Below are positions 6,622 through 50,308 of a DNA stretch of 64,000 nucleotides, piece by piece. Source of the DNA: Pseudothauera nasutitermitis (GTDB taxonomy: Bacteria; Pseudomonadota; Gammaproteobacteria; Burkholderiales; Rhodocyclaceae); the NCBI RefSeq assembly GCF_004801295.1, contig NZ_SSOC01000004.1, positions 186,001 to 250,000 of the forward strand, written 5' to 3'. The translations under genes were made by a program, and so were the position numbers. Each line of letters begins with the position of its first letter. The stretch's first letter is position 1. The notes under the pieces were generated by a model. It saw only the letters and a program-made list of their open reading frames with translations. It was not told where the DNA came from and made no database searches.

Positions 6622-6787
6622 GACATGTATCCCCAGGCAGAAACCATCGACGGGTCTACGATAGGGCGGCGGCGTTCTTGGTTACAGCTTCAGTATCATA
6701 GAATTGTGCAGGATACAGATTAGAGGCAGGACACACTGTTTGGCCGACGCCGGACCACATCTGTGCCCGTGTGGATCCGTGGGGCCT

Positions 6788-8311
6788 TCAATCGGCCAGC
6801 ACGCAGCGTTCATGCGCCCAGGCACGCAGCGCCGCGACGCGTTCGGCCATCACCACCGAGAGCGGGCGGGTGCGTGCCAGTTCGGCGAGCAGCATGGCCA
6901 TGTCCGGCTCGCGTCCGTCCGGCAGGGCCTCGTAGATGGCCGATACCACGGCCTGCTCGATCTCCGCACCGGACATGCCCGTGGAGTGCTCCGCCAGCGC
7001 GCGCAGGTCGAATGCCGCCAGTGGCAGGCGCTGGCGGTTGAGGTGGATGCGGAAGATGGTCTCGCGTGCCGGGGCGTCCGGCAGGTCGACGAAGAACAGC
7101 TCGTCGAAGCGTCCCTTGCGCACCAGTTCCGGCGGCAGTTCGCGCACTTCGTTGGCGGTGGCGACGATGAACACGCGCGCCGTGCGCTCGGCCATCCAGG
7201 TCAGCAAGGTGCCGAGCACACGGCGCGACACTCCGCCGTCGTGCTCCGCCGAGCCGCTGGCCAGGCCCTTTTCGATCTCGTCGATCCATAGCACCGCCGG
7301 CTGCATGCCCTCGGCCGCGCGCAATGCCTCGCGCAGCTTGCGTTCGGTCTCGCCCTGGAACTTGTCGTACAGCGCGCCGAAATCCAGGCGCAGCAGCGGC
7401 ACGCCCCAGGCGGCCGCGGTGGCCTTGGCCGCCAGGCTCTTGCCGGTGCCCTGCACGCCGGCGATCAGCACGCCGCGCGGCACCGGCAGGCCGGGGCGTT
7501 CGACCTCGCCGAGGAACACCGGGCGGCGCTGTGCCAGCCAGCGCCGCAGGCGCAGCATGCCGCCGATGGCGTCGGCGTTGTCCAGCACCACCTCCAGGCT
7601 CAGGCCGGGCAGGGATTGCTGCTTGTAGGCGGCGGCGCGCTGCAGGTCCTCGCGGGTCAGCGCGCCGTCGTCGCGGATCGCCAGGCGCAGCTGGTGGCGC
7701 ACGTCTTCCTCGCACAGGCCGTTCACGTAGCGCACCATGGCGTCTTCCACGGCGCGTTCGCGCCGCGCCGGCCTGCCGCTCTGGCGCTCGTACAACTGGA
7801 ATTCGCTGTCCAGCAACTGGCGGATGCGCGCTTCGTCGGGCAGCGGCAGGCTCAGCCGTGCGGCGTGGCGGGCGAGTTTGGCCGGCAGGGTGAGCGCGGG
7901 CGACACCAGCACCAGGCTGCGGCCGTCCACCGGGTGGTCGAGGGCGATCTCGCGCAGCAGGCGCACGGCCACCGGGTCTTCCAGATAGGGGTGGATGTCG
8001 AGCAGCACATACAGGCCGGGTTGCCCCCGGCCGTCGATGTGGGTCAGGGCGGCTTTCAGGCTGGCGGTGTCGTCGATGCGCCATTCGCGCGCATCGGCGG
8101 GGGCGGCCGGCGCGGTGCCGGGGATGGCACCGCCGTAGCGGAAGTTGGTGTGCACCAGCCCGCCGGCCGCCGACCAGCGGTACAGCGGCAGGCGGCGTTC
8201 CTCGGCGATGCCGGCGAGCAGGCGCAGGGCGCGCTGCTCTTCCAGGGTTTCGATGACGATGATCGGCACGCGGGCACGTACCAGGGCGGCGAGATCGCGC
8301 GAATCGTTCAT
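6788..8311 (-). CDS. Ycf46-like AAA+ ATPase
   Basis: 507 residues. The N-terminal half (about 1-240) is a poorly conserved helical region, as in cyanobacterial/plastid Ycf46. The C-terminal AAA+ module has Walker A GVQGTGKS, Walker B VLWIDEIEK, sensor FIVATAN and an arginine-finger region RKGRFDE. In cyanobacteria Ycf46 has been linked to inorganic-carbon use, but in betaproteobacteria the role is not established. It is a monocistronic minus-strand gene with 112 bp to the next minus gene upstream. The start at 8311 gives MNDSRDLAALVRARVPI, the usual beginning of these proteins. Confidence 0.82.
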   Translation of the reverse strand: MNDSRDLAALVRARVPIIVIETLEEQRALRLLAGIAEERRLPLYRWSAAGGLVHTNFRYGGAIPGTAPAAPADAREWRIDDTASLKAALTHIDGRGQPGLYVLLDIHPYLEDPVAVRLLREIALDHPVDGRSLVLVSPALTLPAKLARHAARLSLPLPDEARIRQLLDSEFQLYERQSGRPARRERAVEDAMVRYVNGLCEEDVRHQLRLAIRDDGALTREDLQRAAAYKQQSLPGLSLEVVLDNADAIGGMLRLRRWLAQRRPVFLGEVERPGLPVPRGVLIAGVQGTGKSLAAKATAAAWGVPLLRLDFGALYDKFQGETERKLREALRAAEGMQPAVLWIDEIEKGLASGSAEHDGGVSRRVLGTLLTWMAERTARVFIVATANEVRELPPELVRKGRFDELFFVDLPDAPARETIFRIHLNRQRLPLAAFDLRALAEHSTGMSGAEIEQAVVSAIYEALPDGREPDMAMLLAELARTRPLSVVMAERVAALRAWAHERCVLAD

Positions 8312-8423
8312 GACGGGCGGGCAGGGCGGCAGAGGCGAACCGCGCCATTATGCGCGCCCGCCCGGCGCCGCGCATGTTTACGGCATCGGCCGCCCACGTG
8401 CCGCGCCGGCCCGCCGCGCGGGG

Positions 8424-9002
8424 TCAGCCCTTCGGCAGACGGCCCATCAGATAGAACGCCTCGTTGGGCGGCGTGCTGGTCAGGTGCACCAGCCGGTTGC
8501 TCATCGCGAAGAAGGCGGTGATCGCACCGATGTCCCAGATATCCTCTTCGTCGAAGCCCTGCGCGCGCAGGGCTTCCAGATCGCCGTCCTCCACCTCGGC
8601 GCCGCGCGTGCTCAGCTTGAGGGCGAAATCCAGCATGGCGCGCTGGCGCGGGGTGATCTCCGCCTTGCGGTGGTTGGTGGCCAACTGGTCGGCCACGCGC
8701 GGGTTCTTGGCGCGGATGCGCAGCACCGCGCCGTGCGCGATCACGCAGTACAGGCATCCGCCGGCCGCCGAAGTGGCCACCACGATCATCTCGCGCTCGG
8801 CCTTGCTCAATCCGCCTTCCTTCTCCATCAGCGCATCGTGGTAGTCGAAGAAGGCGCGGAATTCGGCCGGGCGGTGGGCCAGCATCAGGAACACGTTGGG
8901 GATGAAGCCGGCCTTTTCCTGCACGGCGAGCAGGCGCGCGCGCAGATCGTCCGGCAGCTGGTTCAGGTCGGGTACGGGAAAGCGGCTGATCGATGTGGTC
9001 AT
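8424..9002 (-). CDS. Carboxymuconolactone decarboxylase/AhpD-like peroxidase-related protein
   Basis: 192 residues. The AhpD-type redox motif GGCLYCVIAHG carries a CxxC pair followed by His. This matches the peroxidase-related branch of the CMD family (ISRFPVPDLNQLPDDLR near the N-terminus, FFAMSNRL near the C-terminus). Such proteins reduce peroxides through the cysteine pair. The ATG at 9002 follows a GGAGGAGACCC ribosome site. The gene lies 41 bp downstream of acuI on the same strand, so it is probably the last gene of an acuR-acuI operon and may counter electrophile or peroxide stress. Confidence 0.83.
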   Translation of the reverse strand: MTTSISRFPVPDLNQLPDDLRARLLAVQEKAGFIPNVFLMLAHRPAEFRAFFDYHDALMEKEGGLSKAEREMIVVATSAAGGCLYCVIAHGAVLRIRAKNPRVADQLATNHRKAEITPRQRAMLDFALKLSTRGAEVEDGDLEALRAQGFDEEDIWDIGAITAFFAMSNRLVHLTSTPPNEAFYLMGRLPKG

Positions 9003-10772: not shown

Positions 10773-10802
10773 TTGCCGGGCTTCGGACGATTGCCGTATA
10801 TT
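10773..10802 (+). promoter_or_regulatory. Probable promoter of the cobalamin operon
   Basis: A -35-like TTGCCG (10773-10778) and a -10-like TATATT (10797-10802) are separated by 18 bp. They lie directly upstream of the cobalamin riboswitch and face the cobO operon. Confidence 0.45.
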
Positions 10803-10804
10803 GG

Positions 10805-11020
10805 CGCGGTATCGATCAGGGAGCCCCGCCGCGCGTCCGCGCCCGGGGTGAAACGGGAAGTCCGGTGCCCTCGGCGAATCCTTCGCCGCGCATTCCGGCG
10901 CAGCCCCCGCTGCTGTAAGCCTGACGGAACCGCCACCCATGCCACTGGGCCCTGCCCGGGAAGGCGGCGGATTCCGGAAGACGGCGAGCCAGAAGACCGA
11001 CCCCGGTCGATGACGAAGGT
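10805..11020 (+). promoter_or_regulatory. Cobalamin (AdoCbl) riboswitch
   Basis: The conserved landmarks occur in order: GGTGAAACGGGAA (about 10848), GCAGCCCCCGCTGCTGTAA in the middle (about 10901-10919), CCACTGG...GGGAAGGCGG (about 10942-10970), and the B12-box-like GAGCCAGAAGACCG (about 10987). Cobalamin riboswitches shut off uptake and synthesis genes when coenzyme B12 is plentiful. This one precedes cobO and the btuFCD uptake genes. The 160 bases between it and the cobO start contain GCCGCC-A-GGCGGC (11105-11117), a possible part of the expression platform. Whether control is at termination or at translation cannot be read with confidence. Confidence 0.93.
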
Positions 11021-11183: not shown

Positions 11184-11795
11184 ATGGATGAAGACCGCAA
11201 GCAGAGTCACAACGAGCGCATGCAGCGCAAGAAGGAAGTGGTCGATGCGGCGATCGGGCGGGCGCAGGAAGAACGCGGCATCGTCATCCTGATCACCGGC
11301 AACGGCAAGGGCAAGACCACCTCCGCCTTCGGCACCCTGTACCGCGCGCTGGGCCACGGCCAGCGTGCCGGCGTGGTGCAGTTCATCAAGGGCACCCAGG
11401 CCACCGGCGAAGTCATCTTCCTGCAGCAGCACCCGGCCACCGCCGCGGTGCAGTACCACGCCATGGCCACCGGCTTCACCTGGAACACGCAGAACTGGGA
11501 GGCCGACAAGCGCGCCGCCGACGAGGCCTGGGCGCACGCCCGGCGCATGCTGGCCGACCCGGCGCTGAACCTGGTGCTGCTCGACGAGCTGACCTACATG
11601 CTCAAGTACAACTATCTCGACACCGCCGAGGTCGTCGCGGCCATCCGCGCGCGGCCGGCCATGCAGACCGTGCTCGTCACCGGGCGCGCGGCGAAGCCGG
11701 AACTGGCCGAACTGGCCGATACGGTCAGCGAGATCGCCGACCGCAAGCACGCCTTCAGGGCCGGGGTGAAGGCGCAGGCCGGCATCGACTTCTGA
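11184..11795 (+). CDS. cobO: Cob(I)yrinic acid a,c-diamide / cob(I)alamin adenosyltransferase
   Basis: 203 residues, normal for CobO/BtuR. The P-loop is GNGKGKTT at about residues 38-45. FIKGTQATGE, TWNTQNW and LVLLDELTYML follow, all family hallmarks. The enzyme transfers the adenosyl group of ATP to the Co(I) corrinoid in the cytoplasm and serves both de novo synthesis and salvage. It is the first gene after the riboswitch. An AGGAG lies 9 nt upstream of the ATG at 11184. The stop overlaps the btuF start (TGATG), indicating translational coupling. Confidence 0.95.
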   Translation: MDEDRKQSHNERMQRKKEVVDAAIGRAQEERGIVILITGNGKGKTTSAFGTLYRALGHGQRAGVVQFIKGTQATGEVIFLQQHPATAAVQYHAMATGFTWNTQNWEADKRAADEAWAHARRMLADPALNLVLLDELTYMLKYNYLDTAEVVAAIRARPAMQTVLVTGRAAKPELAELADTVSEIADRKHAFRAGVKAQAGIDF

Positions 11796-14505: not shown

Positions 14506-19348
<4,843 letters not shown>

Positions 19349-19352
<4 letters not shown>

Positions 19353-20374
19353 ACGACCCGCTCGCCGCCGCCCCGCCGGCCTTTCCCTTCAGCGCCCTGC
19401 ACGGTCAGCCGCTGCTGCGCCGTGCCCTGCTGCTGGCCGCCATCGACCCGCTGATCGGCGGCGTGCTGGTCGAAGGCCCGCGCGGCACCGCCAAATCCAC
19501 CGCCGCCCGCGCGCTCGCCGCGCTGCTGCCGGGCGGGTACTTCGTCAACCTGCCGCTGTCGGCCAGCGAGGAACAACTGGTCGGCTCGCTCGACCTGGAA
19601 GCCGCGCTGCGCGACGGCCAGGTGCGCTTTCGCCCCGGCCTGCTGGCCCGCGCGCACGAAGGCGTGCTGTATGTGGACGAGGTCAATCTGCTCGCCGACG
19701 GCTTGGTCGACCTGCTGCTCGACGTCAGCGCCAGCGGCATCAACCGCATCGAACGCGACGGCATCAGCCACGCCCACCCGGCGCGCATCGCCCTGGTCGG
19801 CACGATGAACCCGGAAGAAGGCGAACTGCGCCCGCAACTGCTCGACCGCTTCGGCCTGTTCGTGCGCCTGGAAGCAAACCTGCCGCCGGCCGAGCGCGAA
19901 GCCATCGTGCGCACCCGGCTCGCCTTCGACGCCGACCCGGCGGCCTTCGCCGCCCGCAGCGCGGCGGCCGAGGGCGAACTGGCCGCGCGCATCGCCGGCG
20001 CGCGCGCGCGGCTCGCCGCCATCGCCTTCGACGACGCCAGCCATGCGGAGGTCGCCGCGCGTTGCCACGCCGCTGCGGTGGAAGGCGTGCGCGCCGACCT
20101 GGTGATGCTGCGCGCCGCGCGCGCCCACGCCGCGTTCGCCGACCGCGACCACATCACCGCCGAGGACATCGACGCCGTGGCCGAACTGGTGCTCGCCCAC
20201 CGCCGCCATGCGGATCAAGCCCCGACTGCCGAGCCACCGGCGCAGGGCGGCGAGACGCCGGATGCGGCGCCTGCGCCATCCAGGCGCGACGAAGACTGGG
20301 GCGCGCTGCCGCCGCAGGCGGTGCCGACCGCCACGGTCAAACCACTGAGGCCGCTCCATGCAAAAAAGCCCTGA
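19349..20374 (+). CDS. Cobaltochelatase AAA+ small subunit, zero-frame product of the chlI/D gene
   Basis: 341 residues in the normal frame. Walker A is GPRGTAKST, Walker B is [10 protein letters not shown], and [19 protein letters not shown] is the ChlI/BchI sensor region. This is the AAA+ motor of the Mg/Co chelatase family. No separate cobS, cobT, chlI or chlD gene is present in the cluster. The frame ends HAKKP-stop exactly over an A AAA AAG heptamer followed by a strong hairpin, so a fraction of ribosomes should shift to -1 and make the longer medium subunit (next entry). The start is the ATG at 19349 in an ATGA overlap with cobN. Confidence 0.9.
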
Positions 20375-21030
20375 CGCGTCCGGCGGCCCCCGGCTGGGCC
20401 GCCGGACGCGGCCCCCATCCCGCGCAACGCGGCCGCAAGGCGCGCCGCCCCGGCACGCGCATCGACTGGCCGCGCACCCTGGCCGCCAAGGGCCCGGCGC
20501 CGCTCGCGCGCGAACACCTGCGCCGGCGCCCGCCGCCGGCCGGCGGCGCGCTGCTGCACTGCCTGCTGCTCGACTGCTCGGCCTCGATGCTGCGCGGCCG
20601 GCGCCTGGCGCTGGCCAAGGGCCTGCTGCAAGCCTGGGCCGCGCGCTGCTACCGGCGCCGCGAGACGCTGATGGTGATCGGCTTCGCCGGCGAGCAGGCG
20701 CGCCTGCTGCACGCGCCGGGCAAGGCGGCGGCCTTCAACGAACGCTGGATCGCGCCCATCGCCGGCGGCGGTGCAACCCCGGCGGCGTCAGCCATTGCGC
20801 TGGCCGACCGCGTGCTCGCGCAACGCCGGCGCAGCGCGGACGAGCGCGTGGAACTGTGGCTGCTGTCGGACGCCCGCTTCGCCACCTTGCCGCCCCGCCC
20901 GCAACGGGCCGACCACTGCACCGTGATCGACTTCGACGACGGCCCGCGCGCGCTCGGCCGCGCCGCCCGGCTGGCCGCCGCCTGGGGTGCGGACTGTTTG
21001 CCGGTCCGGGCTGTTGTCGCTTCACGCTGA
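19349..21030 (+). CDS. chlD: Cobaltochelatase medium subunit (ChlD-like AAA+/VWA), made by -1 frameshift
   Basis: Predicted frameshift product of about 560 residues: 340 from the AAA+ frame to 20368, then 220 from the -1 frame (20368-21030). The second part begins ALTRPAAPG, runs through an Arg/Pro-rich linker ([14 protein letters not shown]) and ends in a VWA domain with the MIDAS motif LLDCSASM. This is the ChlD/CobT architecture. The -1 frame has no ATG, GTG or TTG near its beginning; the ATG at 20358 is in another frame. Independent initiation would therefore need a CTG at 20371. The frameshift signal described at 20347-20410 explains the arrangement better. Antonov (Mol Biol Evol 2020, recalled) reported such chlD frameshifting in cobalamin producers. 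Confidence 0.82.
20347..20410 (+). promoter_or_regulatory. Programmed -1 ribosomal frameshift signal in chlI/D
   Basis: The parts are in order. An SD-like GAGG lies at 20347-20350, with an 11-nt spacer. The slippery heptamer A AAA AAG (20362-20368) is in the correct phase for the zero frame (GCA AAA AAG CCC TGA). A 6-nt spacer contains the zero-frame stop at 20372-20374. A perfect 15-bp GC-rich hairpin follows, with arms 20375-20389 and 20396-20410 and a CCGGCT loop. This is the same architecture as the E. coli dnaX site. The -1 frame continues without a stop to 21030 and encodes a VWA domain. Confidence 0.88.
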
Positions 21031-21082
21031 CCCGATTCACCCACGTTCCAGCCACCACGTTTCATCACAGGAGAAAACAACC

Positions 21083-21763
21083 ATGCATATCGAACCCGGA
21101 ATCGTCGAAGGCGGAAAGATTCTGCTGAGCTACGGCACCGCCGCCGCCGCCATCGGCTACAGTGCCAAACTGGCGGTGGATACCATCAAGCGCGACGGCA
21201 TCGCCTCGCTGGCGGTGCGCGCACTGATCGCCGCCGTGCTCGTGTTCGCCTTCTTCGAAGTCCTGCCCACCAAGCCGGTGGGCGTCTCGGAGGTGCACTT
21301 CATCCTCGGCTCCACGCTGCTGCTGCTGTTCGGCGCGGCTCCGGCGGCCATCGGCCTGATGGCCGGCCTGCTGATTCAGGGCCTGTTCTTCGCGCCCGAC
21401 GATCTGCCGCAGTACACCATCAACGTCACCACCCTGCTGGTGCCGCTGTTCGCCATCGCCGCGCTCGCCCGCCGCATCATCCCGGCGGAGACCGCCTACG
21501 TGGACATCCGCTACGGCCAGGCCTTCAAGCTGTCGCTGGCCTACCAGGGCGGCATCGTCGCGTGGGTCGCCTTCTGGGCGCTCTATGGTCAGGGCGTGGG
21601 CGCAGAAAACCTGCAGAACGTGCTGAGCTTCGGCGCGGCCTACATGGCGGTGGTGATCCTCGAACCGCTGGTCGACCTGGCCGTGCTCGCCGCCGCCAAG
21701 GCGCTGCACCAGCTCAAGGGCAGCATCGCGCTGGAGAAGCGGCTGTACGACACCGGTAACTGA
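21083..21763 (+). CDS. CbiM-like energy-coupling-factor permease (cobalt uptake candidate)
   Basis: 226 residues from the ATG at 21083, with an AGGAG 9-10 nt upstream. The protein is hydrophobic with about six to seven membrane segments. It begins Met-His (MHIEPGIV), the N-terminal metal ligand pattern of CbiM/NikM S-components. Other family-like segments are IAALARRIIP and EPLVDLAVLAA. It closes the B12 operon, so cobalt supply for CobN is the likely role. No CbiN, CbiQ or CbiO lies in the window; CorA at 21982 is the only other possible cobalt carrier nearby. Distant CbiM members without partners occur in proteobacteria. Confidence 0.75.
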   Translation: MHIEPGIVEGGKILLSYGTAAAAIGYSAKLAVDTIKRDGIASLAVRALIAAVLVFAFFEVLPTKPVGVSEVHFILGSTLLLLFGAAPAAIGLMAGLLIQGLFFAPDDLPQYTINVTTLLVPLFAIAALARRIIPAETAYVDIRYGQAFKLSLAYQGGIVAWVAFWALYGQGVGAENLQNVLSFGAAYMAVVILEPLVDLAVLAAAKALHQLKGSIALEKRLYDTGN

Positions 21764-48425: not shown

Positions 48426-50308
48426 GCTCCCAGTTCAAACTGATGCGGGAACGCCGTTTCCTGCCCTTCTTCCTGACCCAGTTCCTCGGCGCGTTCAACG
48501 ACAACTTCTACAAGAACGCCCTGGTGGTGCTGATCACCTTCCAGGCCGCGCGGCTCACCACCCTGTCGCCGGGCGTGCTGGTGAACCTGGCCGCCGGGCT
48601 GTTCATCCTGCCCTTTCTGCTGTTCTCCGCCACCGCCGGGCAGTTCGCCGACAAGTACGAGAAGAGCCGGCTGATCCGCTTCACCAAGCTGCTGGAAGTG
48701 GTGATCATGCTGCTCGCCACGGCGGCCTTCGCGCTGTCTTCAGTGGGGCTGATGCTGTTCTGCCTGTTCCTCATGGGCACGCAGTCGGCCATCTTCGGGC
48801 CGGTCAAGTACGCCATCCTGCCGCAGGTGCTCGACGAAACCGAACTGGTGGGCGGCAACGCGCTGGTGGAGTCCGGCACCTTCCTCGCCATCCTGCTCGG
48901 CACCATCGTCGGCGGCCTGCTGATCGCCGTGCCGTCGGGCAGTGTGTGGGTGTCGGCCGGCACGCTGGCGGTGGCGGTGCTGGGGTATCTGGCCAGCCGC
49001 GCCATCCCGCCGGCCGCGGCGGTCGATCCGGGCATGAAGATCGACTGGAACCCGGCCACTCAGACCTGGCAGATGCTTGGCTTCGTGCGCGAGAACCGCA
49101 CGGTGTTCCTGTCCATCCTGGGCATCTCGTGGTTCTGGTTCTACGGCGCGGTGTTCCTCTCGCAGTTTCCCGGCTTCGCCTCCACCGTGCTGGGTGGCGA
49201 CGAGAAGGCGGTGACCCTGCTGCTGGCGGTGTTCTCGGTGGGCATCGCGGCGGGTTCGCTGCTGTGCGAGCGCCTGTCCGGCAAGCACGTGGAAATCGGC
49301 CTGGTGCCCTTCGGCTCCATCGGCCTCACGGTGTTCGGCCTGGACCTGTGGTGGGCCAGCTCGGCGATGGATGCCGGCGGCGCCACGCTGCGCCCGCTTG
49401 CCGAACTGCTGGCCGAACCGGCCACCTGGCGCATCCTCTTCGATCTGGTCATGGTGGCGCTGTGCGGCGGTTTCTACATCGTGCCGCTGTACGCGCTGGT
49501 GCAGAGCCGCTCCGTGCCCTCGCACCGCTCGCGCATCATCGCCGCCAACAACATCCTCAACGCGCTGTTCATGGTGGTGGCCGCCGGCATGGGGGCGGGC
49601 CTGCTGGCCGCCGGGGCCAGCGTGCCGCAGCTGTTCCTGATTACCGCGCTGCTCAACGCCGCGGTGGCGATCTACATTTACACCCTGGTGCCGGAATTCC
49701 TGCTGCGCTTCATCGTCTGGCTGCTGGTGCACACGGTGTATCGCCTGCGCGTACAGGGCATGGAGCACGTGCCGGAGCAGGGCGGTGCGGTGATCGTCGC
49801 CAACCACGTGAGCTTCGTCGATGCGTTGATCATCATGGCGGCCTGCCGTCGGCCGATCCGCTTCGTCATGGACCATCGCATCTTCCGCTGGCCCATCCTG
49901 TCCTTCGTGTTCCGCACCAGCCGGGCGATTCCCATCGCCCCGGCGAAGGAAGACCCGGCGATGATGGAGCGCGCCTTCGACGAGGTCGCCCGCGCGCTGG
50001 AAGCCGGCGAACTGGTGGGCATCTTCCCGGAAGGGGGCATCACCGGGAACGGCGAACTGCAGCCCTTCCGCCCCGGCATCGCGCGCATCGTCGAGCGCAC
50101 CCCGGTGCCGGTGGTGCCGCTGGCGCTGCGCGGGCTGTGGGGCAGCTTCTTCAGCCGCAAGGACGGCCCGGCGATGACCCGGCCGTTCCGCCGGGGGGCG
50201 TTCAGCCGCGTGGAGCTGCTGGCCGCGCCGCCGGTGGGGGCGGCGGAAGCGACGCCCGAGGGCTTGCGGGAGAAGGTGGTGGCCTTGCTAGGGGGCGTGC
50301 GCTATTGA
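48422..50308 (+). CDS. LplT-like lysophospholipid MFS transporter fused to a PlsC acyltransferase
   Basis: 628 residues. The first ~430 are an MFS transporter of the LplT type (FLGAFNDNFYKNALVVLITF at the start). The last ~190 are a PlsC acyltransferase with NHVSFVDA (HX4D) and FPEGGITGNGELQPFRPG. The fusion could flip lyso-lipid inward and re-acylate it at once. With the PlsC domain of aas, the operon has two acyltransferases. The start at 48422 overlaps the amidohydrolase stop (ATGA). Confidence 0.88.
   Translation: MSSQFKLMRERRFLPFFLTQFLGAFNDNFYKNALVVLITFQAARLTTLSPGVLVNLAAGLFILPFLLFSATAGQFADKYEKSRLIRFTKLLEVVIMLLATAAFALSSVGLMLFCLFLMGTQSAIFGPVKYAILPQVLDETELVGGNALVESGTFLAILLGTIVGGLLIAVPSGSVWVSAGTLAVAVLGYLASRAIPPAAAVDPGMKIDWNPATQTWQMLGFVRENRTVFLSILGISWFWFYGAVFLSQFPGFASTVLGGDEKAVTLLLAVFSVGIAAGSLLCERLSGKHVEIGLVPFGSIGLTVFGLDLWWASSAMDAGGATLRPLAELLAEPATWRILFDLVMVALCGGFYIVPLYALVQSRSVPSHRSRIIAANNILNALFMVVAAGMGAGLLAAGASVPQLFLITALLNAAVAIYIYTLVPEFLLRFIVWLLVHTVYRLRVQGMEHVPEQGGAVIVANHVSFVDALIIMAACRRPIRFVMDHRIFRWPILSFVFRTSRAIPIAPAKEDPAMMERAFDEVARALEAGELVGIFPEGGITGNGELQPFRPGIARIVERTPVPVVPLALRGLWGSFFSRKDGPAMTRPFRRGAFSRVELLAAPPVGAAEATPEGLREKVVALLGGVRY

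Follow-up and report, generated by a model that had tools for sequence, protein, structure and literature searches.

A probable frameshift-type chlD gene beside cobN in Pseudothauera nasutitermitis, with codon-level support for an SD-like upstream element

Frameshift-type chlD genes (fs-chlD) are known in Pseudomonas, Burkholderia, Delftia, Herpetosiphon, Methanocaldococcus and Methanococcus (PMC3711429; PMC9227772). An A_AAA_AAR site has been published for chlD (PMC5009743), and published fs-chlD cassettes gave 63% (A11), 40% (A9) and 10% (A7) frameshifting in E. coli (PMC3711429). At stage 8 of PMC9227772, some fs-chlD members are accompanied by cobN but by no separate gene for the small subunit. 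The family, its site, and its proposed function and evolution are already in print (PMC3711429, PMC5009743, PMC9227772). Two further systems invite comparison. The dnaX gene of E. coli combines an A_AAA_AAG site with an upstream SD-like element and a downstream hairpin (PMC3711429, PMC5009743). Single-frame ChlD/BchD-like AAA+-VWA proteins, found in Larsenimonas and others, have the same domain order with no frame switch.

We analyzed a stretch of 64,000 nucleotides (hereafter the window) from contig NZ_SSOC01000004.1 of Pseudothauera nasutitermitis. It contains, next to cobN, a gene that very probably is an fs-chlD, in which programmed -1 frameshifting would yield both the small and the medium subunit of a cobalt chelatase of the CobN type. 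The support comes from its sequence elements, their conservation, covariation, the gene neighborhood, and the finding of no other subunit genes. The genes and the regulatory element of this locus are listed here.

10802..11019, + strand: cobalamin riboswitch that heads the run of genes (Rfam RF00174, 91.2 bits)
11184..11795, + strand: cobA-type cob(I)yrinic acid a,c-diamide adenosyltransferase, the first gene past the riboswitch (TIGR00708, 210.5 bits, over the cut-off)
14506..15582, + strand: cobW (TIGR02475, 509 bits, over the cut-off)
15582..19352, + strand: cobN, the large cobaltochelatase subunit (TIGR02257, 1615 bits, over the cut-off)
19349..20374, + strand: zero-frame AAA+ (ChlI-like) gene (N-terminal half of TIGR02442, 385 bits; ChlI model TIGR02030, 300 bits; AAA lid PF17863)
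20368..21030, + strand: -1 frame segment with an Arg/Pro-rich linker and a VWA domain (TIGR02442 positions 474-583; PF13519 VWA_2; start-codon scan)
20572-20586, + strand: MIDAS motif DCSAS of the VWA domain (read from the sequence)

The co-directional run after the riboswitch comprises cobA, btuF-, btuC- and btuD-like genes (labels that are best matches under the cut-off), cobW, cobN, the AAA+/VWA gene and a gene at 21082. The stop codon of cobN and the ATG of the AAA+ gene overlap by 4 nt. The original prediction had tied the gene to cobN under a B12 riboswitch; both are present, with the correction that the riboswitch is upstream by about 8.3 kb, ahead of the first gene of the run. The gene directly 3′ of the VWA frame (21082-21762) matched neither Pfam nor NCBIfam at E 0.001, and its N-terminus, MHIEPG, is one that we take to recall CbiM-type cobalt transporters. 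Elsewhere in the window, positions 49069-49192 matched the Burkholderia sRNA family Bcj11 (Rfam RF02835) with 57.5 bits, above the gathering score.

The gene has the layout of fs-chlD genes, with a ChlI-like AAA+ zero frame and, after it in the same gene, a VWA domain in a different frame. The zero frame runs for 341 codons from the ATG at 19349 to a TGA and scored higher against the ChlI model (300 bits) than against the ChlD model (224 bits), its scores for TIGR02442 and the ChlI and ChlD models each falling under the whole-protein cut-off. TIGR02442 describes a putative cobaltochelatase and has a curated cut-off of 779 bits; scanned separately, the two halves scored 385 and 55 bits. By hand count, the fusion product of both frames is 560 aa long. 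The elements around the junction are listed next.

20347..20350, + strand: GAGG, putative SD-like upstream stimulator at 11 nt from the heptamer (read from the sequence; in relatives, choice of AGG for Arg and a control over positions)
20362..20368, + strand: slippery heptamer A AAA AAG in -1 phase (read from the sequence; AAAAAAG in 15 and AAAAAAA in 15 of 30 junctions)
20372..20374, + strand: zero-frame stop TGA (read from the sequence)
20375..20410, + strand: 15-bp hairpin with a 6-nt loop, putative downstream stimulator (folding; covariation in 11 related sequences)

The zero frame closes with GCA AAA AAG CCC TGA, so that an A_AAA_AAR site stands right before the stop, as in fs-chlD. The sequence agrees with the original prediction on the exact -1 phase of A AAA AAG within these codons and on the GAGG 11 nt upstream. 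The predicted perfect 15-bp hairpin, beginning 6 nt downstream, is likewise borne out, its arms being 100% complementary. The window thus has all the sequence elements of a dnaX-type three-element -1 cassette: A_AAA_AAG, an SD-like element upstream and a hairpin downstream. It differs from E. coli dnaX in that the dnaX shift gives the short product and the window shift would give the long one, and the functions are unrelated. With the published fs-chlD genes (PMC3711429, PMC9227772) it shares the gene, the -1 direction, the A_AAA_AAR site and the downstream structure. The three published cassettes have runs of A7, A9 and A11 (PMC3711429), whereas the window has A6G and a GAGG 11 nt upstream, and its efficiency cannot be read from those cassettes because of their longer runs.

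On this model, some ribosomes would read the zero frame to the TGA and release a 341-aa ChlI-like AAA+ ATPase, and others would move back by one base at A AAA AAG and continue into a 560-aa AAA+/linker/VWA protein. The slipping unit would be tRNA-Lys on the heptamer, stimulated from both sides as in dnaX, with the GAGG acting behind the site through base pairing to 16S rRNA and the hairpin acting ahead of it. The 341-aa product would be the small motor subunit and the 560-aa product the medium one for CobN, and CobN with both motor subunits would insert cobalt in the aerobic B12 route. What we infer from these features is that the shift takes place in the source organism, how efficient it is and what the two products do.

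AAAAAAG occurs three times on the two strands of the window against 1.06 expected, and five of 100 shuffles reached three. As the motif is not rare enough in the window, the heptamer by itself is weak evidence, and the case rests on its phase, place and conservation. We turn to the junction in relatives, the comparison that the original prediction had proposed. Searches with the VWA part matched 4 of 6 genomes in the genus, 34 of 297 in the family and 32 of 369 in the class, the family and class genomes having been drawn evenly from larger groups. The contigs of named genomes gave 23 loci by VWA search, and all VWA searches together gave 82; eight family and class matches with no assigned locus lie outside this survey. 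The first set comprised 46 loci, for the most part the stronger matches: 14 genus and family loci (L012 being the window), 23 from named genomes and nine from the class. Four were dropped as the junction was off the contig (L018, L019, L043 and L044). In the 42 with a complete junction, the VWA part was in the -1 frame in 36, in the same frame in six and in the +1 frame in none. Removal of six duplicates (L042, L045, L047, L049, L050 and L051) left 36 loci, 30 with a -1 frame switch, including the window, and six with a single frame.

The A6R heptamer and the -1 relation are kept in all 30 distinct frame-switching junctions, as AAAAAAG in 15 and AAAAAAA in 15, always exactly 10 nt before the zero-frame stop (TGA in 28, TAG in two). 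Besides the window, these junctions come from Azoarcus, Thauera, Parazoarcus, Azomonas, Variovorax, Delftia, Diaphorobacter, Paraburkholderia and MAGs, among others. Across 10,561 codon positions of the same ORFs, only two other -1-phase A6 sites occur, each one codon earlier within the A10 run of the slippery site itself (L023 and L079). Twelve of the 14 genus and family loci have a complete junction (the window included), and all 12 switch to the -1 frame; none is continuous and none has fewer than six A. Where the junction is complete, the nearest relatives carry genes of the frameshift type. Among these, the 11 family loci besides the window are 66-79% identical to it in the AAA+ part and 61-77% in the VWA part.

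These results bear on the reading that a pseudogene or a sequencing indel accounts for the split. Runs of A are common places for indels, but the same frame relation and heptamer recur in 30 distinct junctions, including family loci at the identities just given, and we consider this reading to have a negligible chance of being right.

Single-frame genes are also present in the survey. The remaining 36 of the 82 loci include 20, mostly distant, with both domains, all in a single frame, and 16 with no match to one or both domains. The AAA+ part of those 20 is 23-32% identical to that of the window in 14 and 44-59% in six; one of the single-frame genes (L026, 46% AAA+ identity) is from the family of the window itself. 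Both gene types therefore exist.

The main rival to frameshifting is that the locus holds two separate genes, the VWA protein arising from an internal start or from ribosomes that re-initiate once they have terminated. Members of the family have been entered in RefSeq as two adjacent genes (PMC3711429). In Comamonas antarctica a gene pair lies beside cobN on a 643-kb plasmid (L134:2993-4710), where the record annotates an “ATP-binding protein” and a “VWA domain-containing protein” as two CDS. Another four of the 20 listed plasmid rows carry a two-CDS annotation too. In 28 of the 30 junctions, that of the window among them, a CTG shares bases with the stop (CTGA), and 21 of the 30 have an ATG, GTG or TTG in the VWA frame between -150 and 90 nt into the VWA match (ATG at +23 in L017 and at +32 in L054, for instance). 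Several points count against this rival: the other nine junctions have none of these codons in the scanned stretch, in two junctions with a TAG stop (L048 and L054) the overlapping codon is CTA, the GAGG of the window is 20 nt from the CTG, and in the Comamonas antarctica plasmid copy seven A in a row directly precede the stop of the first CDS.

The start codons of the window itself argue against a separate VWA gene. Between the upstream stop and 260 nt beyond the TGA, the only ATG, GTG or TTG codons in the VWA frame are a TTG at -310 and an ATG at +215 (20587), so the frame has no normal start between these positions, in line with the original prediction. With these as sole candidates, and the ATG situated past the MIDAS motif, an independent start could hardly yield an intact VWA protein. 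Re-initiation would also leave the -1-phase A6R in 30 of 30 junctions unexplained. We judge that two separate genes are improbable here.

The arms of the downstream hairpin (20375-20389 and 20396-20410) are 15 nt each and form 14 G-C pairs and one A-U pair, starting 6 nt past the heptamer. Positions 20369-20425 fold with a minimum free energy of -37.9 kcal/mol (z = -3.32), which none of 200 shuffles equaled. The spacer between heptamer and stem is exactly 6 nt in 28 of the 30 junctions, and the outer six pairs form at the exact expected place in 28 of 30 compared with 7289 of 45,345 control positions (16%). Junction hairpins have a mean of 11.9 pairs compared with 7.2 at control positions; for 13 of the 30 loci, at least 5% of control positions equaled or beat the hairpin. 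Across clades the stem sequence changes and the pairing is retained.

Covariation was assessed in an alignment of 11 of the 30 junctions, from the Azoarcus-Thauera group and with hairpin spans of 36 to 42 nt; L048 (Azomonas, span 37, pair 1 broken), L023 and L024 (span 48) and the other clades were left out. The covariation score was 0.243 (n = 11) against a shuffled mean of 0.102, with 0 of 500 shuffles as high and slid controls at or below 0.067. In this alignment seven of the 18 pairs vary on both sides and 89.7% of cells are paired, a figure that leans towards L013, from which the consensus structure was mainly drawn. Most of the signal comes from the middle and inner stem: in 14 Azoarcus-Thauera-Azomonas loci, four of the outer eight pairs are invariant, and Azomonas L048 breaks pair 1. 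The downstream RNA structure of fs-chlD is thus present in the window as a predicted and covarying hairpin with a putative stimulatory role. We also considered the triplex idea raised for purine- or pyrimidine-rich stems (PMC5009743); it is a poor fit, as nine of the 15 bases in the 5′ arm of the window are pyrimidines.

The upstream element is more restricted. An SD-like core lies 7-11 nt upstream of the heptamer in 17 of the 30 junctions, compared with 430 of 9511 control positions (4.5%). At codon -24 from the stop, 13 of the 30 junctions encode Arg. Twelve of these have Arg before Pro-Leu (R-P-L), and in all 12 genes this Arg is AGG, compared with five of the 332 other Arg codons in the same ORFs. 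The result is GAGG at 11 nt in ten of them and CAGG in two. That a rare codon is kept at this position is a sign of selection at the RNA level in the R-P-L clade, and the AGG choice supports a predicted SD-like stimulator there; the 12 cases are not independent, as the sequences are related. The element appears limited to this clade, since the motif is missing in 13 of the 30 junctions, the thirteenth Arg junction (L053) has CGG in a different context, and in the Variovorax loci L052 and L055 the R-P-L stands further upstream, its Arg being coded CGT or CGC. The accessible text of PMC3711429 and PMC5009743 names no SD-like stimulator for chlD.

Both flanking elements bear on a further reading, in which transcriptional slippage on the A run gives mixed mRNAs that are then read normally. 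Runs of up to 10 A occur in L023 and L079, and published efficiency climbs with run length (PMC3711429). In the window, however, the run is six A followed by G, and the runs given for transcriptional slippage are longer, An with n > 7 (PMC3711429) or nine A or T (PMC5009743). It would also leave unexplained the covarying hairpin at a fixed spacer and the AGG choice. We regard slippage by the polymerase as very improbable at this locus.

Programmed frameshifting would also supply subunits that we did not find elsewhere in the source genome (4.72 Mb, 20 contigs, completeness score 100%). The original prediction had reported no cobS, cobT or separate chlI or chlD nearby, and profile searches extend this to the whole genome. 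The CobS and CobT models had no match anywhere in it, and the ChlI model TIGR02030 found no gene besides that of the window. Beyond the window gene, TIGR02442 gave just 26.7 and 21.8 bits and the ChlD model 11 matches, all at or below 36.4 bits; no other convincing small or medium subunit gene, and so no separate complete chlD, emerged from these profile searches. The broader Pfam family PF01078 had one strong match elsewhere (contig C11, 309 bits, 514-aa frame), which we take to be of the YifB/ComM type; the PF01078 search was also positive in 14 of 14 control genomes. As in some fs-chlD members, cobN is present in the source genome and no convincing separate small subunit gene was found. Together, the conserved A6R, the hairpin covariation and the genome searches support the gene and mechanism first proposed, an AAA+/VWA chelatase gene with a probable programmed -1 frameshift.

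Two other genes of the source genome are of note. A second CobN-like gene (L132:2821-6729 on G000:C1, minus strand) encodes 1302 aa and scored 1713.8 bits against NF004644, over the cut-off. By eye its product has a signal-like N-terminus and a hydrophobic C-terminus, and a TonB-dependent receptor gene (6729-8777) adjoins it. The genome searches found no small or medium subunit gene for this protein but that of the window. Weaker second CobN-like matches occur in G001, G004, G038, G181, G214 and G618. The dnaX gene of the source genome (L129, G000:C8:100-1155) runs off the end of contig C8.

We compared the subunit genes of frameshift-type and single-frame genomes. Among 17 frameshift-type genomes, 15 have no convincing separate ChlI or CobS; the exceptions are G618 (ChlI, 526 bits) and G214 (CobS, 553 bits, just under the cut-off). 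The check covered six single-frame genomes, those of the 20 later single-frame loci lying outside it. All six have cobN, two have CobS, and four (G661, G575, G665 and G666) have neither CobS nor a separate ChlI; the single-frame chlD loci L063, L064, L068 and L072 belong to genomes of this kind, where cobN is present but neither CobS nor a separate ChlI was convincingly matched. In Larsenimonas, for one, the search recognized no small subunit gene to go with its single-frame chlD. Weak matches were set aside throughout (CobS at or below 38 bits; ChlI at or below 28.4 bits outside chlD and chlI genes). The association of the frameshift type with absence of a small subunit gene (15 of 17 versus four of six lacking one) is not decisive. 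Given the four of six single-frame genomes with cobN and no CobS or ChlI, a single continuous protein may suffice in some bacteria. In such genomes the need for both products is directly testable.

In 22 of the 25 genomes checked, cobN was found. Two genomes of the same genus (G002 and G003) have neither cobN nor an AAA+/VWA gene, which fits their joint loss. The third without cobN (G005) is 86% complete and has its AAA+/VWA gene near a contig end.

Literature searches found nothing on chelatase frameshifting in Thauera, and a search on chlD frameshifting in Azoarcus returned no title on the Azoarcus-Thauera clade; the authors' Chelatase DB or supplements may list the window gene. Frameshifting in chlD is also said to have been described by Antonov in 2020, reportedly in Mol Biol Evol 37:2268.

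A wider interpretation, which we hold to be doubtful, is that the chlD signal of this clade is a dnaX-like three-element cassette whose SD-like element is kept as nucleotides by AGG choice. Such a cassette could set the ratio of small to medium subunit near 1:1 and be responsive to cobalt or corrinoid supply, and the second CobN-like protein, for which the searches found no dedicated subunits, might draw on the AAA+/VWA pair as well.

We conclude that the window gene is very likely one more well-formed fs-chlD, and that the modest addition made here is codon-level support for a putative SD-like stimulator in its clade. For annotation, an fs-chlD gene may be split into two unrelated CDS, and the medium chelatase subunit then goes unseen. 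For the family, one clade would be added to the small set of conserved bacterial recoding genes, in which codon choice and covariation show which RNA elements selection keeps.
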